Source: an uncultured Clostridia bacterium
GTDB taxonomy: Bacteria; Bacillota; Peptococcia; Peptococcales; Peptococcaceae
Reading direction: 5' to 3'
Assembly: GCA_944391625.1 (NCBI GenBank)
Contig: CALXUG010000029.1
Coordinates: 1 to 37,710, forward strand
Length of the DNA stretch: 37,710 bases
The notes under the pieces were generated by a model. The model was not told the origin of the DNA and did not search any database. It was given only the letters and a program-made list of their open reading frames with translations. Both the position numbers and the translations under genes were made by a program. Shown here one piece after another: positions 23,522 through 34,591 of the stretch (within the stretch, counting starts at the first letter, position 1; every line of letters begins with the position of its first letter).

Positions 23522-23578
23522 AATTTTTATCCTTTGTCAACCATAGGAGTGCTGGCCACTTTGAAGGAGGGATTCCTG

Positions 23579-23824
23579 ATGAAGACAGAACTGTTAAAAC
23601 AATTGCTGGAACAATTAGATGGGTCCTGTTATTCGCTGGGCGGATATCGGGAAGGCGTGTACTGTATGCAAAAGAAAGGCGCCAATTGGGAAGTGTTTTA
23701 TGGACAGAACAGTTTGCATCTTGGCAGCCGAACTTTTAGCCGGCAGGAAGATGCCAATAAATATTTTTATAAAATGATTATGGAAAAAATGAATCAGCCT
23801 ATCATTCATCGTGGAAAATTATAA
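23579..23824 (+). CDS. small hypothetical protein, 81 aa
   Basis: No family is recognised. ATG 23579 is preceded by AAGGAGGG, a strong RBS. The sequence is soluble, with aromatic strands (YSLGGYREGVYCMQKKGANWEVFYG) followed by a helix (EDANKYFYKMIMEKM). It looks like a small alpha+beta domain. It lies 57 bases after the hydrogenase and before a terminator, so it may be the last gene of the hydrogenase transcript, but a link in function is not shown. Confidence 0.6.
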   Translation: MKTELLKQLLEQLDGSCYSLGGYREGVYCMQKKGANWEVFYGQNSLHLGSRTFSRQEDANKYFYKMIMEKMNQPIIHRGKL

Positions 23825-23866
23825 AAATTTTATGGAAATTTGTAATAGTATCCAGAAAAAATGAAG

Positions 23867-23907
23867 AAAAAAAGAGGAAGCGGAGCAATCTGCTTTCTCT
23901 TTTTTTT
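23867..23907 (+). terminator. intrinsic terminator
   Basis: AAAAAGAGGAAGC pairs with GCTTTCTCTTTTT (one wobble), followed by more T. It separates the hydrogenase region from the pseudopilus operon. Confidence 0.75.
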
Positions 23908-23938
23908 GTAAGTGCAGATTTCTGTCGAAACAATTTGC

Positions 23939-23968
23939 TTGATAAACAAGAATGGGGGATGGTATGGT
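23939..23968 (+). promoter_or_regulatory. possible promoter of the pseudopilus operon
   Basis: TTGATA (23939-23944) and TATGGT (23963-23968) are 18 bases apart, about 37 bases before the chosen start of the ATPase gene. The -10 is imperfect. Confidence 0.4.
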
Positions 23969-24004
23969 AATATATGTAAAGTTTTGACACAGGAGGAGAT
24001 GGGT

Positions 24005-25141
24005 GTGGTGCAATCGGTGCAACGGATAACTGGTTTGGAAGATGAGCGGGGTGTCTGGAGCCATCAGATTTATGAAATCGATGCTGCGGAACAGGCAGGC
24101 AGCGCTGCCGGGGAAATTAATCAAATTTTACGCCAGGCGTTAGAGCTGAAAGCCAGCGACATTCACCTGGAGCCGCAGAGAGACGGATTATTGGTGCGGT
24201 TTCGGTGTGACGGCGCATTACAAAAACAAACGCTGCTTTCCCCAGGATTGCAGCAGCAGATTTTAAACCGGATTAAGGTGATGGCAGAAATGGATACTAC
24301 AGAAAAACGGTTGCCGCAGGATGGTCATCTGGCTTTGCGCTGGCAGAAAAAACAGTTTGATTTGCGGGTTTCCAGTTTGCCATTATTTTTGGGTGAAAAA
24401 ATGGTGCTGCGTATTCTTGGTCAGCAGGAGAACTTAATGACGTTGGAGCAGTTAGGATTTTCGCCGGATAATCTGCAAAAGGTACAGCAATTGTTGCAGA
24501 TACCCAGTGGGATTGTCCTGATTTGCGGGCCCACCGGGAGCGGTAAAACGACAACCTTGTACAGCATGCTGGAGGTTTTGCGGGAATCAGGAAGAAATAT
24601 TGTGACGTTGGAGGATCCTGTAGAATACGAAATGGCGGGGATTAATCAGGTACAGATTAATGAAAAAACCGGTTTGACTTTTGTTCGCGGGCTGCGCAGT
24701 ATTTTGCGGCAGGACCCGGATATTATCATGGTAGGAGAGATACGGGATCTGGAGTCTGCTGAAATTGCTGTTAGGCTGGCCTATACTGGACATCTGGTAT
24801 TGGCATCGTTGCATACCAACGATGCGCTGGGCGCTGTGAATCGGCTGGTTGAAATGGGCATTGCTTCCCACTTGCTGGCTAGCTGTTTAAACGGCGTTAT
24901 CGCGCAGCGATTGGTTCGTCGGTGGCATCAGCAAAAACTGCAAGGTCGCATTGCCATTCAGGAGGTTATGATCTGCACAGCCCATATGCGGCGTTTGCTC
25001 AGTCATTATGAAACATTTTTGCAGCAGCAGGATGTGCTGAAACAGCAATTTGCATCTCTGACGCAGGACGGAAGGCAGAAAGCGGCAGAAGGAAGGACAA
25101 CGCTGGAGGAGGTACAGGCGGTTTTGGGGCCGGAGCTATGA
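24005..25141 (+). CDS. comGA: ComGA/PilB-type traffic ATPase
   Basis: Assembly ATPase that powers extrusion of pseudopilins from the inner face of the membrane. About 378 residues, the size of Bacillus ComGA and much shorter than PilB/GspE (~550), because the N-terminal MshEN-like domain is absent. Visible are KASDIHLEPQ, Walker A GPTGSGKTTT, the Asp box RQDPDIIMVGEIRD and the His box HLVLASLHTND. The four-cysteine zinc motif of many GspE proteins is not present. GTG 24005 has AGGAGG 8 bases upstream; ATG 23999 is too close to it, and the frame is open to 23912. Its stop overlaps the next start (ATGA). Confidence 0.88.
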   Translation: MVQSVQRITGLEDERGVWSHQIYEIDAAEQAGSAAGEINQILRQALELKASDIHLEPQRDGLLVRFRCDGALQKQTLLSPGLQQQILNRIKVMAEMDTTEKRLPQDGHLALRWQKKQFDLRVSSLPLFLGEKMVLRILGQQENLMTLEQLGFSPDNLQKVQQLLQIPSGIVLICGPTGSGKTTTLYSMLEVLRESGRNIVTLEDPVEYEMAGINQVQINEKTGLTFVRGLRSILRQDPDIIMVGEIRDLESAEIAVRLAYTGHLVLASLHTNDALGAVNRLVEMGIASHLLASCLNGVIAQRLVRRWHQQKLQGRIAIQEVMICTAHMRRLLSHYETFLQQQDVLKQQFASLTQDGRQKAAEGRTTLEEVQAVLGPEL

Positions 25142-26211
25142 AAACAGTATTTTGGCAAAAAAAATCTCTTTCTTCGCAGAGATTATATTTTATCTGCCAG
25201 CAGCTGTCTTTTGCATTAGCAGGTGGGATGTCACTGCCGATGGCGTTGTCTTTTGTGGGCAGTGAAATGCGGTATGGCAATGGAAAACAGTTTTTGTTGC
25301 AGCTGGCGGAGCAGGTACAGCAGGGGCAATCTTTTGTGCAGGCCTTGCAGCAATCCGATAGCAGATATTCGCCGGTGCTGCTGGAATTTGCTATGGTTGG
25401 AGAATTGAATGGAAGCATGGAAACGGCGATGAAGCAGGCGGCTGAATATTTTCAGCGGCAGGATAAAATAAAACAGCTTTTGTTTTCCGCACTGACCTAT
25501 CCTATGGTTATTTTGTTGCTGATGCTGTTGGCGCTTGGCGCCATGTTGCTATTGGTGGTGCCTGCTGTGGTGCAGACCTATCATAATTTTCAGGCGCCGC
25601 TTCCAACAGCAACCAAGCTGGTTTTGGTTTGCAGCGCCTGGTTTCAACAGTATTGGATGGCTGTTTTAATGGTATCGTTGTTAAGTATATTTGGAGCATT
25701 TTTACTGTTTTATCAGATGGGGCGGCATCGTTCCGGCAGAGCGGGATTGCGGAAAGCTTTGCAAAAAGTTCCTGTGGCAGGCAGTTTTTATCAGCAATAC
25801 TGGTTTGTGCAGTTTATCCAGGCGTTAGGACTGTTGTTATCTGGCGGTATGCTGTTGGTAGATTGTTTATATGCCATTCAGAATATTCATAAACGGAGTT
25901 TGTTTGTGGACGATTTGCAGCAATTGGCCGATGAGGTTGCCGCAGGCGTGCCCTTTTGGCAGGCCATGGAGCGGTGCAGTTTGTTTCCCGCTGCAGCACG
26001 GCAGGTGCTGGCTGTCAGTGAGCAAACAGGACGGTTGGCCTTGGCTGTTGCGCAGCTGAGTCAGTATTATGAGCAGCAGCTGCAGCAGCGGTTACAAGTG
26101 GCGGGAAAATTGCTGGAACCCTGTTTTATTGTTTTGCTGGGCGGTATGGTGCTGGTTTTGGCTGGCAGCTTATTTTTACCGCTGATACAATCCTATCAAT
26201 ATTTGCTTTGA
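25138..26211 (+). CDS. comGB: ComGB/PilC-type inner-membrane platform protein
   Basis: Polytopic platform protein of the type II secretion / type IV pilus family that docks the ATPase and feeds pilins into the growing fibre. The 357 residues contain two T2SSF domains: one at ~20-140 (FALAGGMSLPMALSFV, EFAMVGELNGSMETAM) and one at ~225-345 (QALGLLLSGGMLLVDCL, LAVSEQTGRLALAVAQL). Hydrophobic segments lie near 120-145, 165-195 and 330-350. The ATG overlaps the comGA stop by four bases. Length agrees with the ComGB class. Confidence 0.88.
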   Translation: MKTVFWQKKSLSSQRLYFICQQLSFALAGGMSLPMALSFVGSEMRYGNGKQFLLQLAEQVQQGQSFVQALQQSDSRYSPVLLEFAMVGELNGSMETAMKQAAEYFQRQDKIKQLLFSALTYPMVILLLMLLALGAMLLLVVPAVVQTYHNFQAPLPTATKLVLVCSAWFQQYWMAVLMVSLLSIFGAFLLFYQMGRHRSGRAGLRKALQKVPVAGSFYQQYWFVQFIQALGLLLSGGMLLVDCLYAIQNIHKRSLFVDDLQQLADEVAAGVPFWQAMERCSLFPAAARQVLAVSEQTGRLALAVAQLSQYYEQQLQQRLQVAGKLLEPCFIVLLGGMVLVLAGSLFLPLIQSYQYLL

Positions 26212-26221
26212 GGTTGCGTGT

Positions 26222-26662
26222 ATGAAGAACAAACAAGGATTTACCTGTGTAGAGCTTCTGGTGGTTTTGTTGATTTTATCGCTGCTGTTCTGTATCTTGC
26301 TGCCATCATTTGGGCAGAGCTGGCAGCAAATTTCTATGGATGCGGCCATTCTGCAATTACATCGTGATCTGCGCTGGGCCCAGCAGTTAGCCGCAAGGGA
26401 ACAGAAAACAGTATCTGTGACATTTTTTCAGGACAGGCAGCCCTACCGATATGTGGTGCGGGTTTCGGGGCAATCGAAGAATCAGCGCCGCAGAGAGCTG
26501 CCTGATTCTTTGCGGCGGATAGAAGCGCAGACCATTTTGATTCGTGCAGATAAACGCTTTCAAAAAAACGGACATATTTTACTGGCTAAGGGAACGGAGG
26601 AACGTTATGTCTACTACTACCAGACCGGACGAAGCCGCATTACCAGGCAAAAAGCAACATGA
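26222..26662 (+). CDS. pseudopilin, GspH/ComGD-like
   Basis: 146 residues with a class III prepilin leader: short basic KNKQG, then FTCVELLVVLLILSLLF, with Glu at +5 after the G|F cleavage site expected for prepilin peptidase. The rest is a hydrophilic domain with basic patches (NQRRRELPDSLRR). It is likely a minor pilin that joins the pseudopilus tip. The start lies 10 bases after comGB, and its 3' end overlaps the next pilin gene. Assignment to a precise ComG letter is not possible. Confidence 0.8.
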   Translation: MKNKQGFTCVELLVVLLILSLLFCILLPSFGQSWQQISMDAAILQLHRDLRWAQQLAAREQKTVSVTFFQDRQPYRYVVRVSGQSKNQRRRELPDSLRRIEAQTILIRADKRFQKNGHILLAKGTEERYVYYYQTGRSRITRQKAT

Positions 26663-26957
26663 AAAAGGGTTTACCCTGCCGGAACTGCTGGTGAGCCTTT
26701 GCATTTTGATGATATTGCTGCAAGGTGTGTGGCAATGGGGGTTGTTATTTCAGCGTACCAACGAACGGATTCAGCAGAATCAGCAGGCGGTGTTGATTGC
26801 CCAGTGTTATTTTGCAAATCTGCCGCAGGAGTTGCCTGCCGGATGGTCGGTAACTGTAGAGCGGAAAGAAAAAGAAACAAAACTGGAGCAGCAACTTGTA
26901 GTGGTTTCTTATCAGGAGCAGCAATGGCCGTTTTATTATATTGGTGAAAGGCGGTAG
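26607..26957 (+). CDS. pseudopilin, type IV prepilin-like
   Basis: 116 residues. An N-terminal leader of about 20 hydrophilic residues ends KKQHEKG, then FTLPELLVSLCILMILL with Glu at +5. The remainder is a small domain (QRTNERIQQNQQAV, ending WPFYYIGERR). ATG 26607 is used because GGAGG lies about 7 bases upstream; the gene therefore overlaps the previous pilin by 56 bases in another frame. It is a probable minor pilin. Confidence 0.75.
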   Translation: MSTTTRPDEAALPGKKQHEKGFTLPELLVSLCILMILLQGVWQWGLLFQRTNERIQQNQQAVLIAQCYFANLPQELPAGWSVTVERKEKETKLEQQLVVVSYQEQQWPFYYIGERR

Positions 26958-26960
26958 TTT

Positions 26961-27506
26961 GTGGAAGAAATAACTTGTAAACAGCAGAAACAGGCGGGCT
27001 TTACCTTGCCTGAGCTGTTGGTGGTTCTTTTTTTATTGTCGTTGCTGTCTGCCTTTCTAATGCAGTGCCTATTTACCCTGACAGAGCAGCAGAAGCAGCG
27101 CATTGCCTTTTTAGAACTGGAAGATAATCTGAACCTGGCTATGGATTGGTTAAAAGAAGATATTGAAAAAAGCTGCGCGGTGTTGGCCTGTTCACAGGAG
27201 CAGCTGGTATTGCAGCAACAAAGGACAGGCATCCAATATACGTTGGGGATTGATCAGCAGGAAACGGAACATTTATATCCATTAGAAGGAAAAATACTGT
27301 ATCGAAAAGAAAATATTCAATGGAATCGTCAGCCGATGGCGAATTTTATTGAGACGTTTACCATATCCTATTTAGATAAATACGGGCAGCTGACAGAAGA
27401 ACCAACAGCGGTCTGTGCAGTTGGAATCCATTTGACAGGTTGCTGGCAAAATGGAAGGGTCGAGAAACAACAGATTGTCCGTTTGATGAAGAAGGGGTAT
27501 TTATAG
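26961..27506 (+). CDS. pseudopilin, GspJ/ComGF-like
   Basis: 181 residues. Short leader ending KQQKQAG, then FTLPELLVVLFLLSLLSAFL with Glu at +5. The C-terminal domain is larger (LEDNLNLAMDWLKEDIEKS, GKILYRKENIQWNRQ, VGIHLTGCWQNGR), as in the GspJ/PilW and ComGF classes. The start is GTG, 3 bases after the previous stop, with AAAGGCGG upstream. It probably works with the other minor pilins here. Confidence 0.75.
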   Translation: MEEITCKQQKQAGFTLPELLVVLFLLSLLSAFLMQCLFTLTEQQKQRIAFLELEDNLNLAMDWLKEDIEKSCAVLACSQEQLVLQQQRTGIQYTLGIDQQETEHLYPLEGKILYRKENIQWNRQPMANFIETFTISYLDKYGQLTEEPTAVCAVGIHLTGCWQNGRVEKQQIVRLMKKGYL

Positions 27507-27519
27507 GGAGGGCTGTGTT

Positions 27520-28911
27520 ATGCAGAAAAAAGAGCTGAAAGAAATTTTAAATGCGGCATTGTCTGCCGGCGCTGATTTTGCAGAGATTTTTATTGAACAA
27601 AAAGAAAGTACCGTAATTAGCTGTGAAGACAGCAAAATTGAAAAAATCAACACGGGTATTGATTATGGCATGGGGATTCGTGTCATTGCCGGTGAAAGTA
27701 CCTCTTATGTACACAGTAACGATGTTTCGCTGAATAATGGCATACAGATGGCCAAACTGGCGGGAACGGTTGCGCAGGAGTATCGAAGCAAAGCAACAGT
27801 ACAGGAATTTCAGATGCCCGGTGCCTCGCAACAGCCAACGGTTGTGCAGCGGCCGGAACAGGTGGCGTTTGATGATAAAATCGCTCTGCTGAAAGTAGCC
27901 GATGCAGAGGCGCGGGCGTTGAACGAAGCCATTCAGCAGGTATCCGTCAGTTACAGCGATGTGACCCAAAAGGTTTTGATTGCCAACAGTGAAGGCACTT
28001 GTGTGGAGGATGAACGGGTTCGGGTGCGGTTTGCCTGCAATAGCATCGCCAGAAAGGCCGATCAGATTCAGACAGGATTTTCCTCTATGGGCGGCACCTG
28101 TGGATTTGAGCTGTTTGAAGAAAAATCTGCGGCGCAGTTGGGCAGAGAGTCGGCAAAACGGGCCATGACTTTGTTGGAGGCTGTACCGTGTCCTACCGGA
28201 AAAATGACAGTGATTATCGGCAGTGAAGCGGGAGGCACTATGGTGCATGAAGCCTGCGGCCATGGCCTGGAGGGTGATTTGGTGCAGAAGGGATTATCCG
28301 CTTATGCAGGCAAATTAGGGCAGCAGGTAGCTTCAGAAAAAATTACAGTGGTGGACGATGCCACCATTGCCGGAAAATACGGCAGCTATGCTTATGATGA
28401 CGAAGGAAATCCGGGAGAGAAAACGGTGTTGATCGAAAATGGCGTGTTGGTGCAGTATATGAACGACTTGCAGACTGCCAGACGCACCGGTGCAGTGTGT
28501 ACTGGAAACGGCCGGCGGGAATCCTATCGGGAAAAACCGCTGACTCGTATGAGCAACACCTATATTGCGCCGGGCAATGACAGCGTAGAAGATATGATTG
28601 CTTCTGTGGAGTACGGGCTTTATGTAAAACGAATGGGCGGCGGTCAGGTAAACAGTTTAAACGGAGATTATGTATTTGATGTTGCCGAAGGCTATCTGAT
28701 TGAACACGGACAAATTACCAAAGCTGTCCGGGGGGCTACATTAGCCGGGAACGGACCAGAAAGTCTGCGCAATGTAGAGATGGTTGGCAATGATTTGGGA
28801 TATGCCATAGGAACCTGCGGCAAAAACGGGCAAAGCGCTCCTGTTGCCGATGCGCAACCTACTTTGAAAATTCATGGACTGACTGTCGGCGGTACAGGGA
28901 GCAGCCAATGA
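27520..28911 (+). CDS. tldD: TldD metalloprotease
   Basis: Zinc-dependent peptidase subunit of the TldD/TldE pair, which trims unfolded peptides and in some bacteria matures peptide natural products (microcin B17) or degrades antitoxin CcdA. The 463 residues carry the HExxxH site in HEACGHGLEGD, plus GIRVIAGESTSYVH, GRRESYREKPLTRMSNTYI and the final VGGTGSS. It is preceded by GGGAGG and lies in the middle of the pseudopilin genes; its stop overlaps the start of the next pilin-like gene (ATGA). The substrate is unknown. Confidence 0.93.
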   Translation: MQKKELKEILNAALSAGADFAEIFIEQKESTVISCEDSKIEKINTGIDYGMGIRVIAGESTSYVHSNDVSLNNGIQMAKLAGTVAQEYRSKATVQEFQMPGASQQPTVVQRPEQVAFDDKIALLKVADAEARALNEAIQQVSVSYSDVTQKVLIANSEGTCVEDERVRVRFACNSIARKADQIQTGFSSMGGTCGFELFEEKSAAQLGRESAKRAMTLLEAVPCPTGKMTVIIGSEAGGTMVHEACGHGLEGDLVQKGLSAYAGKLGQQVASEKITVVDDATIAGKYGSYAYDDEGNPGEKTVLIENGVLVQYMNDLQTARRTGAVCTGNGRRESYREKPLTRMSNTYIAPGNDSVEDMIASVEYGLYVKRMGGGQVNSLNGDYVFDVAEGYLIEHGQITKAVRGATLAGNGPESLRNVEMVGNDLGYAIGTCGKNGQSAPVADAQPTLKIHGLTVGGTGSSQ

Positions 28912-29615
28912 AAAAACTCACAGAGCAAAAAGGCTATGTTCTGTTATGGGTTTTGTTTTTGTTGTCGGTGACCATGCTGTGGGGAAGTTTGTTGTTGTTA
29001 AATACATCGGATCAATATGAAGTCAGTAATGGGCGAGTTCAAGAAGAACAAAGTCAATTATTGGCACGCAGCGGCTGGAATTTGGCCTTGCAGCAGTTGG
29101 AAACAACGGGAAGCTTGGAACCAGTGGTATTGGAGACCCAACTGGGCAGCGCACAGGCCACGTTAAAACAAAATAACGCAGGCTTTTTACAGTTGGCTGT
29201 GGCAAGTGCTGTGGAGGAATGCAGCGTTTTGCTGGAAGGAGAGCTGCAGCTGGCCGCGTTTCCCTGGCCGGAGGTACAGCAATGGCCTATTATAGAAAAG
29301 GATAGGCCATGGGACGAACCGGGTTGCATGTTAAGCAGCGGCCAACAATACGTGTTGGAACACAGCAGTTTGCAGCCGGTGGCCATTACCACTTCTTACG
29401 GAGAGCCGGTTACTGTATCGGTGCAAGAACCAATAGAGTTGGGTTGTGTATATATTTATGGAGATTTGGAGCTGTCAGCGCCTTTAAAAGCAGAGGCTAT
29501 TTATATCAGCGGACAAATTTCCGGTATGGAATGGTTGGACTGTGCGCAAGTGGTGGAGGCGGTTTCTGCGCCGTTATGTTACAGGGTGCAGGTTATGGAT
29601 GTCGCGCAGTTGTAA
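28908..29615 (+). CDS. PilX/GspK/ComGG-like pilus assembly protein
   Basis: 235 residues. Starts MKKLTEQKGYVLLWVLFLLSVTM: a short basic leader, then a long hydrophobic helix without the usual Glu at +5, as in GspK- and PilX-type proteins. The following region (QLLARSGWNLALQQLE) is like the first helix of these minor pilins. A beta-rich end follows (VYIYGDLELSAPLKAEAIYISG), which resembles a small solenoid strand pattern. Function as tip pilin is inferred. It lies exactly between tldD and pmbA, overlapping the former by 4 bases. Confidence 0.6.
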   Translation: MKKLTEQKGYVLLWVLFLLSVTMLWGSLLLLNTSDQYEVSNGRVQEEQSQLLARSGWNLALQQLETTGSLEPVVLETQLGSAQATLKQNNAGFLQLAVASAVEECSVLLEGELQLAAFPWPEVQQWPIIEKDRPWDEPGCMLSSGQQYVLEHSSLQPVAITTSYGEPVTVSVQEPIELGCVYIYGDLELSAPLKAEAIYISGQISGMEWLDCAQVVEAVSAPLCYRVQVMDVAQL

Positions 29616-29633
29616 AGGAAAGGAGCCAATGGA

Positions 29634-30977
29634 ATGGGATTGGATTTTGAAAAGTTTGCAGGGACAGGATTGCAGAAAGCAAAAAAAATGGGTGCAGAGC
29701 AGGCTGAATTATTTGTGGTGAAAAGTCGTTCGCTGGAAGTGGAATTGAAAGATGGGCGGATTGATGAAATCAAACAGTCGGACAGTCATGGTGTCGGGCT
29801 GCGGGTAATAAAAGGGAATCGTCAGGGTTTTTCTTTTTCCACCGATTTTAGAGCCAGCGCTTTGGATAAAATGGTAGTGCAGGCTATGGAAAACAGCCGT
29901 TATCATGATGAAGACGAGGATTTATATTTTCCGGCCGGTGGTCAGGTCTATCCTCAATTGAATCTGTATGATCCTGCATTAAAGCAGCATTCTTTGGAAG
30001 ATAAAATGCAGCTGGCGCAGGAAACCGCAGAAACGGCAAAAAAATGGCATCAGCAGGTAAGTCGCATCGAACGGTCTGGATATGAAGAAGGCGAGGTTGC
30101 CATGTGGCTGGCCAACAGCAATGGCATTTTGCAGCATCAAGCAGGGACTTATTGCGGCCTTTTTTGCCTGGCGCTGGGAGAAAAAAACGGTGAACAACAA
30201 AGCGGCTATGGAATGGATTCCAGTGTTTCTCTGGCGGCGTTGTCACCAACAAAGGCAGGGAATATGGCCGGAAAACGGGCAGTACAATTGCTGGGTGCTG
30301 CACCGGTTAACAGCGGTGTGATGGATTTGGTACTGGAGCCGATGATTGCAGCGCAGATTTTGGGGATTATCAGCGCCTGCTTCTCCGGTGAAGCAGTTAG
30401 AAAGAATAAATCATTTTTGGCAGACAAAGTAGGGCAGCTGGTAGCAGGCACAGAAGTTACGTTGATTGATGATGGCTGTATGGCGCAGCATCTGGCCTCT
30501 GGTTCTTTTGATGGAGAAGGGACGGCTACTCAGCGGACTGTACTGGTTGAAAACGGTATGTTAAAGCAATATCTGTACGATTGTCTTTCTGCGAAAAAGG
30601 CAGGTACTGTTTCTACAGGAAATGGTGTGCGCGGCTCTTACAAGGGAACACCTCATGTAGGGACGACTAATTATTATCTGGCAGCAGGCCGTTACAGTCC
30701 AGAGCAATTAATTAGTTCTGTAGAGCAGGGCATTTATGTAACGGAGATTTTAGGCGCCCATACTGCCAATCCGGTTTCTGGAGATTTTTCTTTCGGTGCT
30801 TCTGGTATTTTGATTGAACATGGCGCCCTTTCCCGTCCGGTTCGGGGAGTTACTATTGCAGGAAACTTACAGCAGCTGCTGCAAAAAATCCACGGTGTTG
30901 GAAACGACCTTACCTTTTATGGAAGTCATGGCGCTCCCACTGTTCGGATTGGCCAAATTGCGGTCAGCGGCATATAA
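29634..30977 (+). CDS. pmbA: TldE/PmbA-family protein
   Basis: 447 residues, the non-catalytic partner class of TldD: the same fold but without the HExxxH motif. Visible are ELFVVKSRSLEVELKDGRIDEI at the start, GIISACFSGEAVRKNKSFLADKVG, GVRGSYKGTPHVGTTNYYL and a late VRGVTIAGN. TldD and TldE form a heterodimeric peptidase. AAAGGAG lies 7 bases before the ATG. It ends the operon. Confidence 0.9.
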   Translation: MGLDFEKFAGTGLQKAKKMGAEQAELFVVKSRSLEVELKDGRIDEIKQSDSHGVGLRVIKGNRQGFSFSTDFRASALDKMVVQAMENSRYHDEDEDLYFPAGGQVYPQLNLYDPALKQHSLEDKMQLAQETAETAKKWHQQVSRIERSGYEEGEVAMWLANSNGILQHQAGTYCGLFCLALGEKNGEQQSGYGMDSSVSLAALSPTKAGNMAGKRAVQLLGAAPVNSGVMDLVLEPMIAAQILGIISACFSGEAVRKNKSFLADKVGQLVAGTEVTLIDDGCMAQHLASGSFDGEGTATQRTVLVENGMLKQYLYDCLSAKKAGTVSTGNGVRGSYKGTPHVGTTNYYLAAGRYSPEQLISSVEQGIYVTEILGAHTANPVSGDFSFGASGILIEHGALSRPVRGVTIAGNLQQLLQKIHGVGNDLTFYGSHGAPTVRIGQIAVSGI

Positions 30978-31003
30978 AGTCTGAATAAATTCTTGGTTAT
31001 CTC

Positions 31004-31033
31004 TTGTCGGCAGCAGGAATTTTATGGTATGAT
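31004..31033 (+). promoter_or_regulatory. promoter of the aroQ operon
   Basis: TTGTCG (31004-31009) and TATGAT (31028-31033) are 18 bases apart, just before the aroQ RBS. With a start near 31040 the leader would be very short. Confidence 0.45.
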
Positions 31034-31053
31034 AAATTACGAGGTGAAGATAT

Positions 31054-31494
31054 GTGCGTGTTTTAGTGCTGAATGGTCCCAATCTGAATTTGTTGGGAAC
31101 CAGAAAACCAGAAATATACGGAACCACAACGTTGGCTGATATAGAAAAACAAATGCGGCAGAGGGCAGAGGCATTGCACTGTCAGTTGGATTTTCTGCAA
31201 ACAAATCACGAAGGCGTGTTGGTGGAAGAAATTCAAAAAGCAAAAGGAAATTATCAGTATCTGATTATCAATGCTGCTGCTTATACCCATACCAGTGTGG
31301 CGATCCGTGATGCCATTGAAGCGGTGGAAATTCCTACGATAGAAATTCATTTGAGCAATATTCATGCCAGAGAGGAATTTCGTCATAATTCTCTGTTGGC
31401 GCCGGTTTGCGTTGGACAAATCTGCGGATTTGGAGCAATGAGTTATCTTTTAGCATTGCAGTATGCGGCAGAAATGGGAGATAAAAAAGAATGA
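31054..31494 (+). CDS. aroQ: type II 3-dehydroquinate dehydratase
   Basis: Third step of the shikimate pathway, 3-dehydroquinate to 3-dehydroshikimate. The 146-residue length is normal. It begins with the hallmark VLVLNGPNLNLLGTRKPEIYG, where Tyr is catalytic, then has INAAAYTHTSVAIRDAI and EIHLSNIHAREEFRHNS with the active-site His. The start is GTG with GAGGTGA upstream. It is the first gene of aroQ-pepP-efp, and its stop overlaps the next start (ATGA). Other aro genes are not in the window. Confidence 0.96.
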   Translation: MRVLVLNGPNLNLLGTRKPEIYGTTTLADIEKQMRQRAEALHCQLDFLQTNHEGVLVEEIQKAKGNYQYLIINAAAYTHTSVAIRDAIEAVEIPTIEIHLSNIHAREEFRHNSLLAPVCVGQICGFGAMSYLLALQYAAEMGDKKE

Positions 31495-32564
31495 AACAGA
31501 AACGAATCGAAAAACTTCAACAGAAAATGAAAGCGTTGGACTTAGATGGTTTTTTAGTGACATCAAAGGAAAACAGACAATATTTAACAGGATTTACCGG
31601 CACGTTTGGCTGGGTTTTGGTTACCCAGCATAGCGTTTACCTGATGACGGATTTCCGTTATATGGAGCAGGCGAGACAACAAGCCGTCGGCTGTAAACTG
31701 GTACAGTTTAAACAATTTGCGCCGACCGTAACACTGCGGATGTTGATGGAAGAATTGGAAGTGGTCACACTAGGCATTGAAAGCGACCGCTGCACAGTAG
31801 ATGAATTTGAATTGCTGGCCAATCAGGTGCGGCGGAAAGCCATCACACCGCTGAAAGGTTTTGTGGAAGAAATTCGTCGAATAAAAGATGAAGATGAAAT
31901 TGCCTTGATCGCCAAAGCAGAAGCAATCGGTGATGAAGCCTTTGCCCATGTATTGAACTTAATCCAGCCGGGAATGACCGAGTTGGAAATCGCTATGGAG
32001 TTGGAATTTCAGATGCGCCGCAGCGGTGCATCCGGTGTTAGCTTTGATACCATTGTAGCGTCAGGAAAGCGGTCTTCTATGCCTCACGGAGTAGCTTCTC
32101 AGAAAAAGGTAGAAGCGGGTGACTTTATTACTATGGATTTTGGCTGTGTTTATCAGGGATATTGTTCCGATATGACAAGAACAATTGCATTGGGAAGCGT
32201 TGACGAAAAGCAAGAAACAGTTTATAATCTAGTAAGAAAAGCACAGGAAGATGCACTGCAGGCAATAAAGGCAGGCGTAACTGGTCAAGAAATCCATGCA
32301 GTGGCACAAAATGTGTTTCAGGATGCGGGGTATGGTCCATTTTTTGGGCATGGTCTCGGTCACTGTGTAGGACTGGAGATTCATGAAGAACCAAGATTCT
32401 CTCCAAAGATAGAGGAAATTATTCAGGAAAATATGGTAATCACTGTAGAACCTGGTTTATATCTTCCCAATTGGGGCGGTGTAAGAATAGAAGATTTGGT
32501 TGTAGTCAGGAAAGATGGCTGTATGAATTTGACCCATTCACCAAAAGACTTAATTATTTTATAG
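31491..32564 (+). CDS. pepP: Xaa-Pro aminopeptidase, M24 family
   Basis: Removes an N-terminal residue before proline. 357 residues. The N-terminal creatinase-like domain holds [17 protein letters not shown]. The C-terminal pita-bread domain has metal ligands in [18 protein letters not shown] (two Asp), [16 protein letters not shown] (His and Glu) and [18 protein letters not shown] (Glu). It is close to the B. subtilis YqhT and PepQ classes, so the letter P or Q is not certain. Coupled to aroQ, and 11 bases before efp. Confidence 0.9.
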
Positions 32565-32575
32565 GAGGACGTTGT

Positions 32576-33133
32576 ATGATTGATACAAGCGATTTTAAAA
32601 CAGGTTTAACAATTGAATTAGATGGTGATCCATGTAAAATTGTGGATTTCCAGCACGTAAAACCTGGTAAAGGTGCTGCATTTGTAAGAACAAAAATTAA
32701 AAACCTGAAGACAGGTGCTTCTATTGAACGCACATTCCGTCCAGGTGAAAAACTGCAGGATGCTATCATGGAACGGCAGCAGATGCAGTATCTGTATTTC
32801 GACGGTGAAAACTATGTGTTTATGGATAACAATACCTATGAACAGGTTACACTGAGCGAAGCGCAGCTGGGCGGCAGTGAAAAGTTCCTGAAAGAAAATA
32901 TGGATTGTCTGATTACCAGTTTCAAAGGTGAAGTTATGGAAGTGGAACTGCCTAACACCGTAGAACTGAAAGTAATTGAAACAGAACCAGGGATTAAAGG
33001 AAGTACAGCTTCCGGCGGTACTAAACCTGCAACTCTGGAAACTGGTGCTGTTGTGAACGTACCTTTCTTTGTAAATGTGGATGATGTTCTGCGTGTTGAC
33101 ACCAGAACTGGCGCTTACATTGAAAGAGCGTAA
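32576..33133 (+). CDS. efp: translation elongation factor P
   Basis: Relieves ribosome stalling at polyproline stretches. The 185-residue length is exact for the family, with three beta domains: KOW-like ([21 protein letters not shown]), OB ([20 protein letters not shown]) and C-terminal ([29 protein letters not shown]). Lys32 lies at the loop tip (KPGKGAAF), matching the lysine that carries 5-aminopentanol in B. subtilis; the modification here is unknown. No poxA-like gene is in the window. ATG 32576 has AGGAGG upstream; the frame is open earlier but without support. Confidence 0.97.
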
Positions 33134-33180
33134 CAAATAAATTATTACACAGGTTTATTTTTGAAAGGAGTTTTTCGCGC

Positions 33181-33708
33181 ATGGATATCTATGGAAAAAT
33201 GGCTTATCTGAAAGGCTTGCTGGATGGTATGGAACTGGCAGATAGCAAAGAGAAAAAACTATTTGCGGAAATCATTGATGTTCTGGACGAGCTGGTAGAA
33301 GCAGTGGACGATCTTTACGAAGAACAGGATGAACTGCAGGAATATGTGGAATCCATCGACACTGATCTGGAAGATGCAGAAGAACTTCTGGAAATCATTG
33401 ATGATGATTTAGGGCTTGTTGAAGAAGTGCTGGGAATTGACGATGAAGATTTCTGCCAGTGTGATTGTGATGATGATTGCGACTGCGACGGGTGTGACTA
33501 TGATGAAGAAGATGCTGATATCATCGAAGTAGAATGCCCGGAATGCGGAGAAGTTGTTTGTTTCTACAACGAACTGCTGGACGATGAAGACGTTGATACA
33601 GTAGAAATTCTTTGTCCAAAATGTGATGCTGTTGTTTATACGTTTGAAAGAGATTTGAGAGAAGATCTGGATGACGATATCGCATTTGATGATGACGATG
33701 ATGAATAA
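33181..33708 (+). CDS. acidic zinc-ribbon protein, CD1247 N-terminal-domain family
   Basis: 175 residues. The N-terminal ~40 residues (MDIYGKMAYLKGLLDGM) match the CD1247 N-terminal domain common downstream of efp in Clostridia. A long acidic helical or coiled-coil region follows (33-95). A Cys/Asp-rich stretch comes next (CQCDCDDDCDCDGCDYD). A zinc ribbon then has CPECG and CPKC, before a very acidic tail. The function is unknown; a nucleic-acid or protein contact role for the ribbon is guesswork. GAAAGGAG precedes the start. Confidence 0.75.
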   Translation: MDIYGKMAYLKGLLDGMELADSKEKKLFAEIIDVLDELVEAVDDLYEEQDELQEYVESIDTDLEDAEELLEIIDDDLGLVEEVLGIDDEDFCQCDCDDDCDCDGCDYDEEDADIIEVECPECGEVVCFYNELLDDEDVDTVEILCPKCDAVVYTFERDLREDLDDDIAFDDDDDE

Positions 33709-33723
33709 TAGGTTCTAAAGAAA

Positions 33724-33758
33724 GAAGCCGCCGCTGGATATTGTGGCGGTTTTTTTCT
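33724..33758 (+). terminator. intrinsic terminator
   Basis: CCGCC (33728-33732) and GGCGG (33745-33749) form the core stem, followed by seven T. It ends the aroQ-efp transcript. Confidence 0.8.
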
Positions 33759-33805
33759 TATGTTAAAATGTAAATCATATTTTTAAATAAAGGCGGCAGA
33801 AAATC

Positions 33806-34591
33806 ATGGAATTGCAGCAAATGAAAACAAAAGAGATTGAACAGTTATTACAACAAACCACATCAGATGATATGCCCGCATTGTTAGAGCTCTTATTATT
33901 GGATCAGCGTCGTTCTGTGCAAACAATGGCGCAGCGTTATCAGAGAAAGCTGGAACGGCAGATGCAGGAGGAGCAGCGTCTGGCTGCTATGTGGCAATAT
34001 GAACAACAGACTAAGCAACAGGGATATCAATGGATTGCAGGCACGGATGAAGTAGGACGCGGTCCGTTAGCCGGTCCTGTTGTTGCAGCAGCGGTGATTT
34101 TGTCGGAAGATGCAGAACTGCCGGGAATCAAAGATTCCAAAAAATTGACTCAGCAGCAAAGGGAAGAGCTGGATGTATTGATCCGACAGCAGGCGGTGTC
34201 CTGGGCTATTGCTGAAGTGGATGAAAAAAATATTGATGCTTTGAATATTTTAGAGGCTAGTCGTCTGGCTATGAAACGTGCTGTGGATGATTTATCGGTA
34301 GCAGCTGATTTTATATTGGTGGACGGTTTGCCCAATCCCCGCATTCAGCTTCCATCGTTGGCCATCGTAAAAGGCGACAATAAAAGTATTTCCATTGCGG
34401 CAGCCTCCATTATTGCGAAAGTTTACCGTGATAAATTGATGGATGACTATGGGCAGCAATATCCCGGATATGGGTTTGCAGAACATAAGGGATATCCCAC
34501 AGAAGCCCATTTAAAGGCGATTGAAAAACTTGGCCCCTGTCCCATTCACCGCATGTCATTCCGTCCACTGAGTGAATGGATGGATAAGTAG
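33806..34591 (+). CDS. rnhB: ribonuclease HII
   Basis: Cuts RNA in RNA/DNA hybrids and at single embedded ribonucleotides. 261 residues, with an N-terminal extension of ~70 residues, as in Bacillus RnhB. The catalytic core begins GTDEVGRGPLAGPV with Asp81 and Glu82. It continues with IKDSKKLTQQQRE, ILVDGLP carrying the third acid, and ASIIAKVYRDKLM carrying the last Asp. In Firmicutes rnhB is often near lepB and rbgA, and lepB is nearby here. Confidence 0.95.
   Translation: MELQQMKTKEIEQLLQQTTSDDMPALLELLLLDQRRSVQTMAQRYQRKLERQMQEEQRLAAMWQYEQQTKQQGYQWIAGTDEVGRGPLAGPVVAAAVILSEDAELPGIKDSKKLTQQQREELDVLIRQQAVSWAIAEVDEKNIDALNILEASRLAMKRAVDDLSVAADFILVDGLPNPRIQLPSLAIVKGDNKSISIAAASIIAKVYRDKLMDDYGQQYPGYGFAEHKGYPTEAHLKAIEKLGPCPIHRMSFRPLSEWMDK

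Follow-up and report, generated by a model that had tools for sequence, protein, structure and literature searches.

A type IV pilus-like operon interleaved with tldD and pmbA in an uncultured Peptococcaceae bacterium

The window analysed here (37,710 nucleotides) lies in contig 29 (CALXUG010000029.1) of a genome assembly (GCA_944391625.1; 2.97 Mb, 96% complete) from an uncultured Clostridia bacterium of the family Peptococcaceae. Its nearest named relatives are uncultured Peptococcaceae metagenome-assembled genomes (MAGs), chiefly from animal gut, and TldD identity in the four closest loci is 79-83%. Eight genes lie head to tail on the + strand of the window between positions 24005 and 30977, encoding a pilus assembly ATPase, a platform protein, three pilins, TldD, a fourth pilin of the PilX type and PmbA. 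A first-pass annotation of the sequence had reported this ComG-like run, interleaved with tldD and pmbA, and it is indeed present at that place and on that strand; it had also noted, correctly, that TldD/PmbA is a peptidase pair outside the standard set of ComG or pil components. We propose that the arrangement is an inherited, old chromosomal neighbourhood altered by one gene move, and not a sign of a pilus in need of a protease. Taken as a whole, the explanation that a reduced pil operon sits in its old clostridial place, with TldD/PmbA co-transcribed but not required by the pilus, is given a probability of about 0.72.

Proposed inheritance of the gene order and loss of the protease genes

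The surroundings of tldD in relatives carry this proposal. Loci were gathered by similarity to the window's TldD and their gene orders were read with profiles built for the analysis; the resulting 80 loci, which are those nearest to a single TldD, are not independent of each other. The usual clostridial order is ATPase-platform-major pilin-pilD-three pilins-pilX-pilM-pilN-pilO-(aroC-aroK-aroB)-tldD-pmbA-aroQ-pepQ-efp, and the neighbourhood was seen in Peptococcia, heliobacteria, Desulfotomaculum relatives, Thermincola and MAGs named Negativicutes. Of the 58 loci with at least 5 kb of sequence upstream of tldD, 37 carry two or more kinds of pilus genes there on the same strand, and aroQ/pepQ follow downstream in 45 of the 80. 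Since tldD-pmbA sits between a pilus operon and aroQ-pepQ-efp across Clostridia, its adjacency to the pilus genes is best regarded as inherited. At two loci (L086, L094), type IV pilus clusters flank tldD on both sides, with pilins and pilMNO before it and ATPase/platform genes or pilins after it. In the literature searched, no description was found of this neighbourhood of type IV pilus and shikimate genes with tldD-pmbA, pepQ and efp.

Within the lineage of the window, the position of pilX has changed. In the sister families f3 and f4, pilX stands upstream of pilMNO, and pilD, pilM and pilN are part of the operon; in G009, pilM/N-like genes still precede tldD and pilX already lies behind it; in the window's genus and in G011, the operon has no pilM/N/O, pilD or major pilin. 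This series suggests that pilX probably moved once, from before pilM to behind tldD. The order pilin 3-tldD-pilX-pmbA is found in every same-genus locus that is long enough (G001, G003, G005 and G006), and in G002 and G007 the locus is split over two contigs, one with tldD-pilX and the other with an end of pilX and pmbA. The same order recurs in the family genera g5 (G011) and g3 (G009), and wherever the locus is readable in genera g1, g3 and g5, pilX separates tldD from pmbA. The placement of a pilin gene exactly between the two protease halves, which had been read from the window alone, is thus conserved in three genera and not limited to this genome, and the gene order can be neither chance nor an assembly artefact, because relatives show it too. 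The tldD and pilX frames overlap or almost touch in most relatives' loci. The pilX product itself diverges fast, with identities of about 35-43% within the genus and about 20% to other genera, compared with 65-84% for TldD.

The protease pair appears typical. TldD carries HEACGH at residue 243 and CGKNGQ at residue 433, neither motif occurs in PmbA, the genes are paired, and each protein has all three PmbA_TldD domains. In Escherichia coli TldD/E, the metal is bound by HExxxH and a C-terminal cysteine, and access is limited to unfolded peptides (PMC5810440). The window pair shares its division of motifs with the heterodimeric E. coli metallopeptidase TldD/TldE(PmbA), HExxxH and a C-terminal Cys motif being found in TldD and no HExxxH in the PmbA partner; its genes differ in adjoining a pilus operon, whereas the known roles of the E. 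coli pair concern microcin B17 and CcdA41.

The suggestion that the protease serves the pilus, for instance in pilin turnover, was not borne out, as either set of genes is found without the other in relatives, and the two show no positive co-occurrence. In G010, of the same family (L124, G010:C4), the run reads pilins-pilM/N-like-pilX-pepQ-efp, and in G013, of the same taxonomic order (L125, G013:C126), the pilus operon is joined straight to aroQ-pepQ-efp; tldD and pmbA are gone from both loci, and no TldD match was found elsewhere in either genome. The reverse is seen in G012, where no pilus genes lie near tldD-pmbA, and in G021 and G025, where the only ones adjoining tldD-pmbA are a pilT-type gene and pilD. 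Among 31 near-complete genomes of the class, 11 encode both TldD/PmbA and the pilus ATPase, 11 TldD/PmbA only, seven the ATPase only and two neither (odds ratio 0.29, Fisher p = 0.24). In this count G009 stands among the genomes lacking the ATPase, because its contig breaks there; scoring the ATPase as present gives p = 0.42. Other genes also occur between tldD and pmbA, nth-like in five loci and a transporter gene in one. The loss patterns, the co-occurrence counts and these unrelated genes at the tldD/pmbA junction together argue against an obligate link between protease and pilus. The link is probably only positional, and TldD/PmbA is most likely a co-transcribed housekeeping peptidase.

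Gene content and transcription signals of the operon

The operon begins with the gene for the assembly ATPase (24005-25141, +; PilB/GspE/ComGA type with a short N-terminus; T2SSE PF00437, 1.1e-113), followed by that for the platform protein (25138-26211, +; PilC/GspF/ComGB type; T2SSF PF00482, 1.3e-38). Three minor pilin genes come next, all encoding an N-methylation motif: pilin 1 (26222-26662, +) is of the GspH/FimT/ComGD type (ComGD 66.3 bits, cut-off 70), pilin 2 (26607-26957, +; GFTLPE motif) of the GspI/ComGE type with a weak ComGE score of 23 bits, and pilin 3 (26961-27506, +; GFTLPE motif) of the GspJ/ComGF type by position. The catalytic half of the protease, tldD (27520-28911, +; third domain 4.8e-75), precedes the gene for the PilX/GspK-type minor pilin with its predicted beta-solenoid insert (28908-29615, +), the start of which overlaps the tldD stop, and the non-catalytic half, pmbA (tldE; 29634-30977, +), completes the run. 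The tight packing that had been described is evident, with 4-nt overlaps at ATPase/platform and at tldD/pilX, the latter ATGA; pilins 1 and 2, in correction of the earlier description, overlap by about 56 nt. The remaining gaps are 3-18 nt, of which pilin 3/tldD takes 13 nt and pilX/pmbA 18 nt. No typical major pilin (ComGC/PilA) was found in the operon.

Upstream, a strong intrinsic terminator-like hairpin (23866-23907, +; 19-bp stem with a T-run) parts the operon from hydrogenase genes. The surrounding 111 nt (23815-23925) fold at -33.6 kcal/mol (z -6.95), and none of 200 shuffles was as stable. A 96-aa open reading frame (ORF) without a family match lies between the hydrogenase gene and this hairpin (23534-23824). 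Behind the hairpin is a probable operon promoter (23920-23971, +), with TGTCGAA at 23923-23929, a -35 element TTGATA at 23939 and a -10 element TATGGT ending at 23968, separated by an 18-nt spacer; its blocks are among the invariant columns in four genomes of the genus and lie in the best conserved stretch there. As the conserved -10 element ends downstream of 23912 and the ribosome site also fits better, the ATPase gene most probably starts at 24005 and not with the longer ORF from 23912. The motif TGTCG(A/G)AA directly upstream of the -35 element resembles a Spo0A box, Spo0A is encoded in the window's genome and in 11 of the 13 genomes of the family, and Spo0A control of the pilus operon is possible.

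No convincing terminator was found inside the operon (24005-30977), where all terminator-like matches lie within coding sequence and are as frequent as in shuffles. The expectation of one transcript is therefore backed by the sequence, in that a strong terminator lies upstream and none of conviction inside. Downstream, aroQ (dehydroquinase II by domain match; 31054-31494, +), a pepQ-like Xaa-Pro peptidase gene (profile match; 31491-32564, +) and efp (elongation factor P; 32573-33133, +) form the rest of the neighbourhood. They have a probable separate promoter at 31004-31033 (+; TTGTCG-18-TATGAT with an extended -10), a similar element occurs in three relatives, and the pmbA-aroQ stretch folds no better than shuffles (z 0.90). 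A terminator-like hairpin after a CD1247-like gene (33730-33750, +) is the probable end of the run, and an Rfam search returned tRNAs only. The best reading of these signals is a single transcript from the ATPase gene to pmbA, with aroQ-pepQ-efp expressed from its own promoter and possibly by read-through.

The PilX-type pilin between the protease halves

The protein encoded between tldD and pmbA has 235 residues and a prepilin-like N-terminus, KGYVLLWVLFLL, with the glycine and without Glu5. GspK-type pilins likewise have the glycine but no Glu5. A Pfam search of the protein gave no match; a relative in locus L024, encoded upstream of pilM, has a weak PilX_N match and a weak bactofilin match. 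An AlphaFold model built from eight sequences (mean predicted local distance difference test, pLDDT, 85; predicted template modelling score, pTM, 0.67) shows a long helix at the N-terminus, four strands (residues 73-118), a beta-solenoid-like part at about 139-216 and a last strand at 224-234. Foldseek alone returned no match to it below E 0.001; Thermus ComZ headed its list with an E of 0.02, which is not significant. With a second aligner, the top match was the Streptococcus sanguinis minor pilin PilA (Z 10.1, root-mean-square deviation, rmsd, 2.1 over 89 residues), ahead of ComZ (Z 9.7 over 175 residues, rmsd 15.4), TT_C0855 (Z 8.6) and EpsI/GspI (about 8), and the insert (residues 132-223) matched bactofilin at Z 6.2. 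In ComZ, the solenoid lies between the penultimate and last strands, and the protein is a proposed DNA receptor at the pilus tip (PMC6561018). The PilX model resembles the competence-associated Thermus thermophilus ComZ (6QVI) in having a beta-solenoid set into a pilin fold ahead of the last strand; its solenoid is far smaller (about 80-90 residues versus 380), and the likeness is one of topology, not of sequence. The model suggests, then, a pilin with a beta-solenoid insert and the topology of ComZ, a likeness that does not imply a claim of homology.

Operon identity, alternative readings and meaning

The label ComG-like, used in the first-pass annotation, is imprecise, as the genes resemble a clostridial pil operon minus pilMNO. 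With the pil operon of Peptococcia sister families and Desulfotomaculum relatives, the window operon shares the ATPase, the platform and GspH/I/J-type and PilX-type pilins in one run followed by tldD-pmbA-aroQ-pepQ-efp; it differs in lacking pilM, pilN, pilO, pilD and a major pilin, and in having pilX behind tldD, not before pilM. With Bacilli comG (comGA-comGG) it shares a reduced gene set without pilMNO, and comEA and comEC elsewhere in the genome, but it lacks comGC and is interrupted by tldD. A true Bacilli-type ComG operon with tldD inserted would fit the short ATPase and platform, the ComGD-like pilin, the absence of pilMNO and the competence genes elsewhere, and is nonetheless improbable. 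The ATPase scores 278.9 bits against the NCBIfam ComGA model, below the cut-off of 300, and since the pil ATPases of relatives reach 272-279, the model does not set it apart; the curated cut-offs of ComGA, ComGB, ComGC and ComGD are all missed, none of the three pilins upstream of tldD scores best as ComGC, and pilM/N-like genes still adjoin the same genes in G009 and G010. In a tree built without Bacilli ComGA, the ATPase groups with that of G011 (0.995) and with other clostridial pilus ATPases (0.987), and a 2011 survey of Gram-positive pili reported com operons from Bacilli only (PMC3244431). For the operon of the window, the most fitting name is a reduced pil operon, one that appears to have converged on a ComG-like gene set.

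As to the protease, the alternative closest to the first-pass suggestion is a dedicated quality-control peptidase, which would degrade unfolded or unassembled pilins in the cytoplasm, PilX above all, with the tldD-pilX coupling matching their amounts. The restriction of known TldD/E to unfolded peptides (PMC5810440) and the interleaving and translational overlap shared by three genera would suit it. Some observations also weigh against the main explanation. The tldD/pilX overlap is retained in most relatives; in three Desulfallas/Desulfotruncus-type loci (L057:8372-9124, L062:9404-10159, L066:4328-5146) the tldD/pmbA junction holds pilD, so that a pilus gene has been inserted there a second time, independently, which is the one hint for a link; contig 65, with a PilT-type ATPase and a further, partial pilus cluster, blurs the division of labour; and the co-occurrence count rests on 31 genomes only. 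We nevertheless consider a quality-control role unlikely. G010 and G013 retain a pilus operon in the absence of tldD/pmbA, Bacillus subtilis matches the pilus ATPase family and has no TldD match, the 31 genomes give no positive co-occurrence, and the folded parts of pilins would be found beyond the membrane, whereas TldD/PmbA carry no apparent export signal. Full-text search found no literature linking TldD/PmbA to type IV pili, most subscription journals being outside its coverage. TldD/E also removes the microcin B17 leader peptide, and its relatives act on other ribosomally synthesised and post-translationally modified peptides (RiPPs; PMC5810440, PMC10885120), which would allow the maturation of a secreted RiPP-like peptide leaving via the pseudopilus. 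Such a role is very improbable here, given that neither a precursor-like gene nor an enzyme for peptide modification was recognised within 23912-34591 and that the gene between tldD and pmbA encodes a structured minor pilin; a precursor hidden inside the operon was considered and rejected, the intergenic gaps being too short.

Several pilus and competence genes lie elsewhere in the genome. ComEC and ComEA are encoded, which makes DNA uptake the likeliest function, and one prepilin peptidase was detected (contig 7). An orphan major-pilin-like gene (137 aa; GspG 44 bits; ComGC 38 bits, cut-off 75) is on contig 16 (L104:5970-6383, G000:C16), where it stands between a gene for a small cysteine-rich protein and a GntR/ABC transporter set. 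The partial type IV pilus-like cluster on contig 65 (L105, G000:C65:1-5409) encodes a GspF-type protein, pilin-like proteins without a clear motif, a class B sortase and the PilT-family ATPase (419.6 bits, cut-off 319). No pilM, pilN or pilO is in the operon, and genome-wide no true PilM was found, PilN and PilO not being included in that search; the only PilM_2 match in this genome (G000) was rejected, as it lies in a Pdu/Eut-type cluster and is EutJ-like.

For the reduced pil operon in its inherited place, we propose a series of linked steps. A pil-type operon would have been kept in its ancestral clostridial place before tldD-pmbA and aroQ-pepQ-efp, and in the family ancestor a PilX-type minor pilin gene would have come to sit between tldD and pmbA. 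The window's genus would subsequently have lost pilM, pilN and pilO from the operon, the major pilin now being encoded elsewhere. One transcript starting near 23975 would provide the ATPase, the platform, four minor pilins, TldD and PmbA. By homology and model, the single detected prepilin peptidase would cleave the pilins, which the ATPase and platform would then polymerise; the four minor pilins would form the tip, where PilX may display its beta-solenoid, and the pilus would most likely take up DNA together with ComEA and ComEC. TldD/PmbA would act as a general cytoplasmic peptidase for unfolded peptides which, judging by the loss patterns, the pilus can dispense with.

It is conceivable, if doubtful, that in Clostridia TldD/PmbA became a pilus-associated peptidase that clears or trims unfolded minor pilins and is kept in step with a solenoid tip pilin by translational coupling; if true, this would give a cellular role beyond RiPP and CcdA processing to a widespread and poorly understood pair. 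The family's PilX-type pilin, in its predicted fold, resembles the proposed Thermus DNA receptor ComZ, and gene orders in the family include intermediates on what may be a path from a full pil operon, pilMNO included, towards a ComG-like set.

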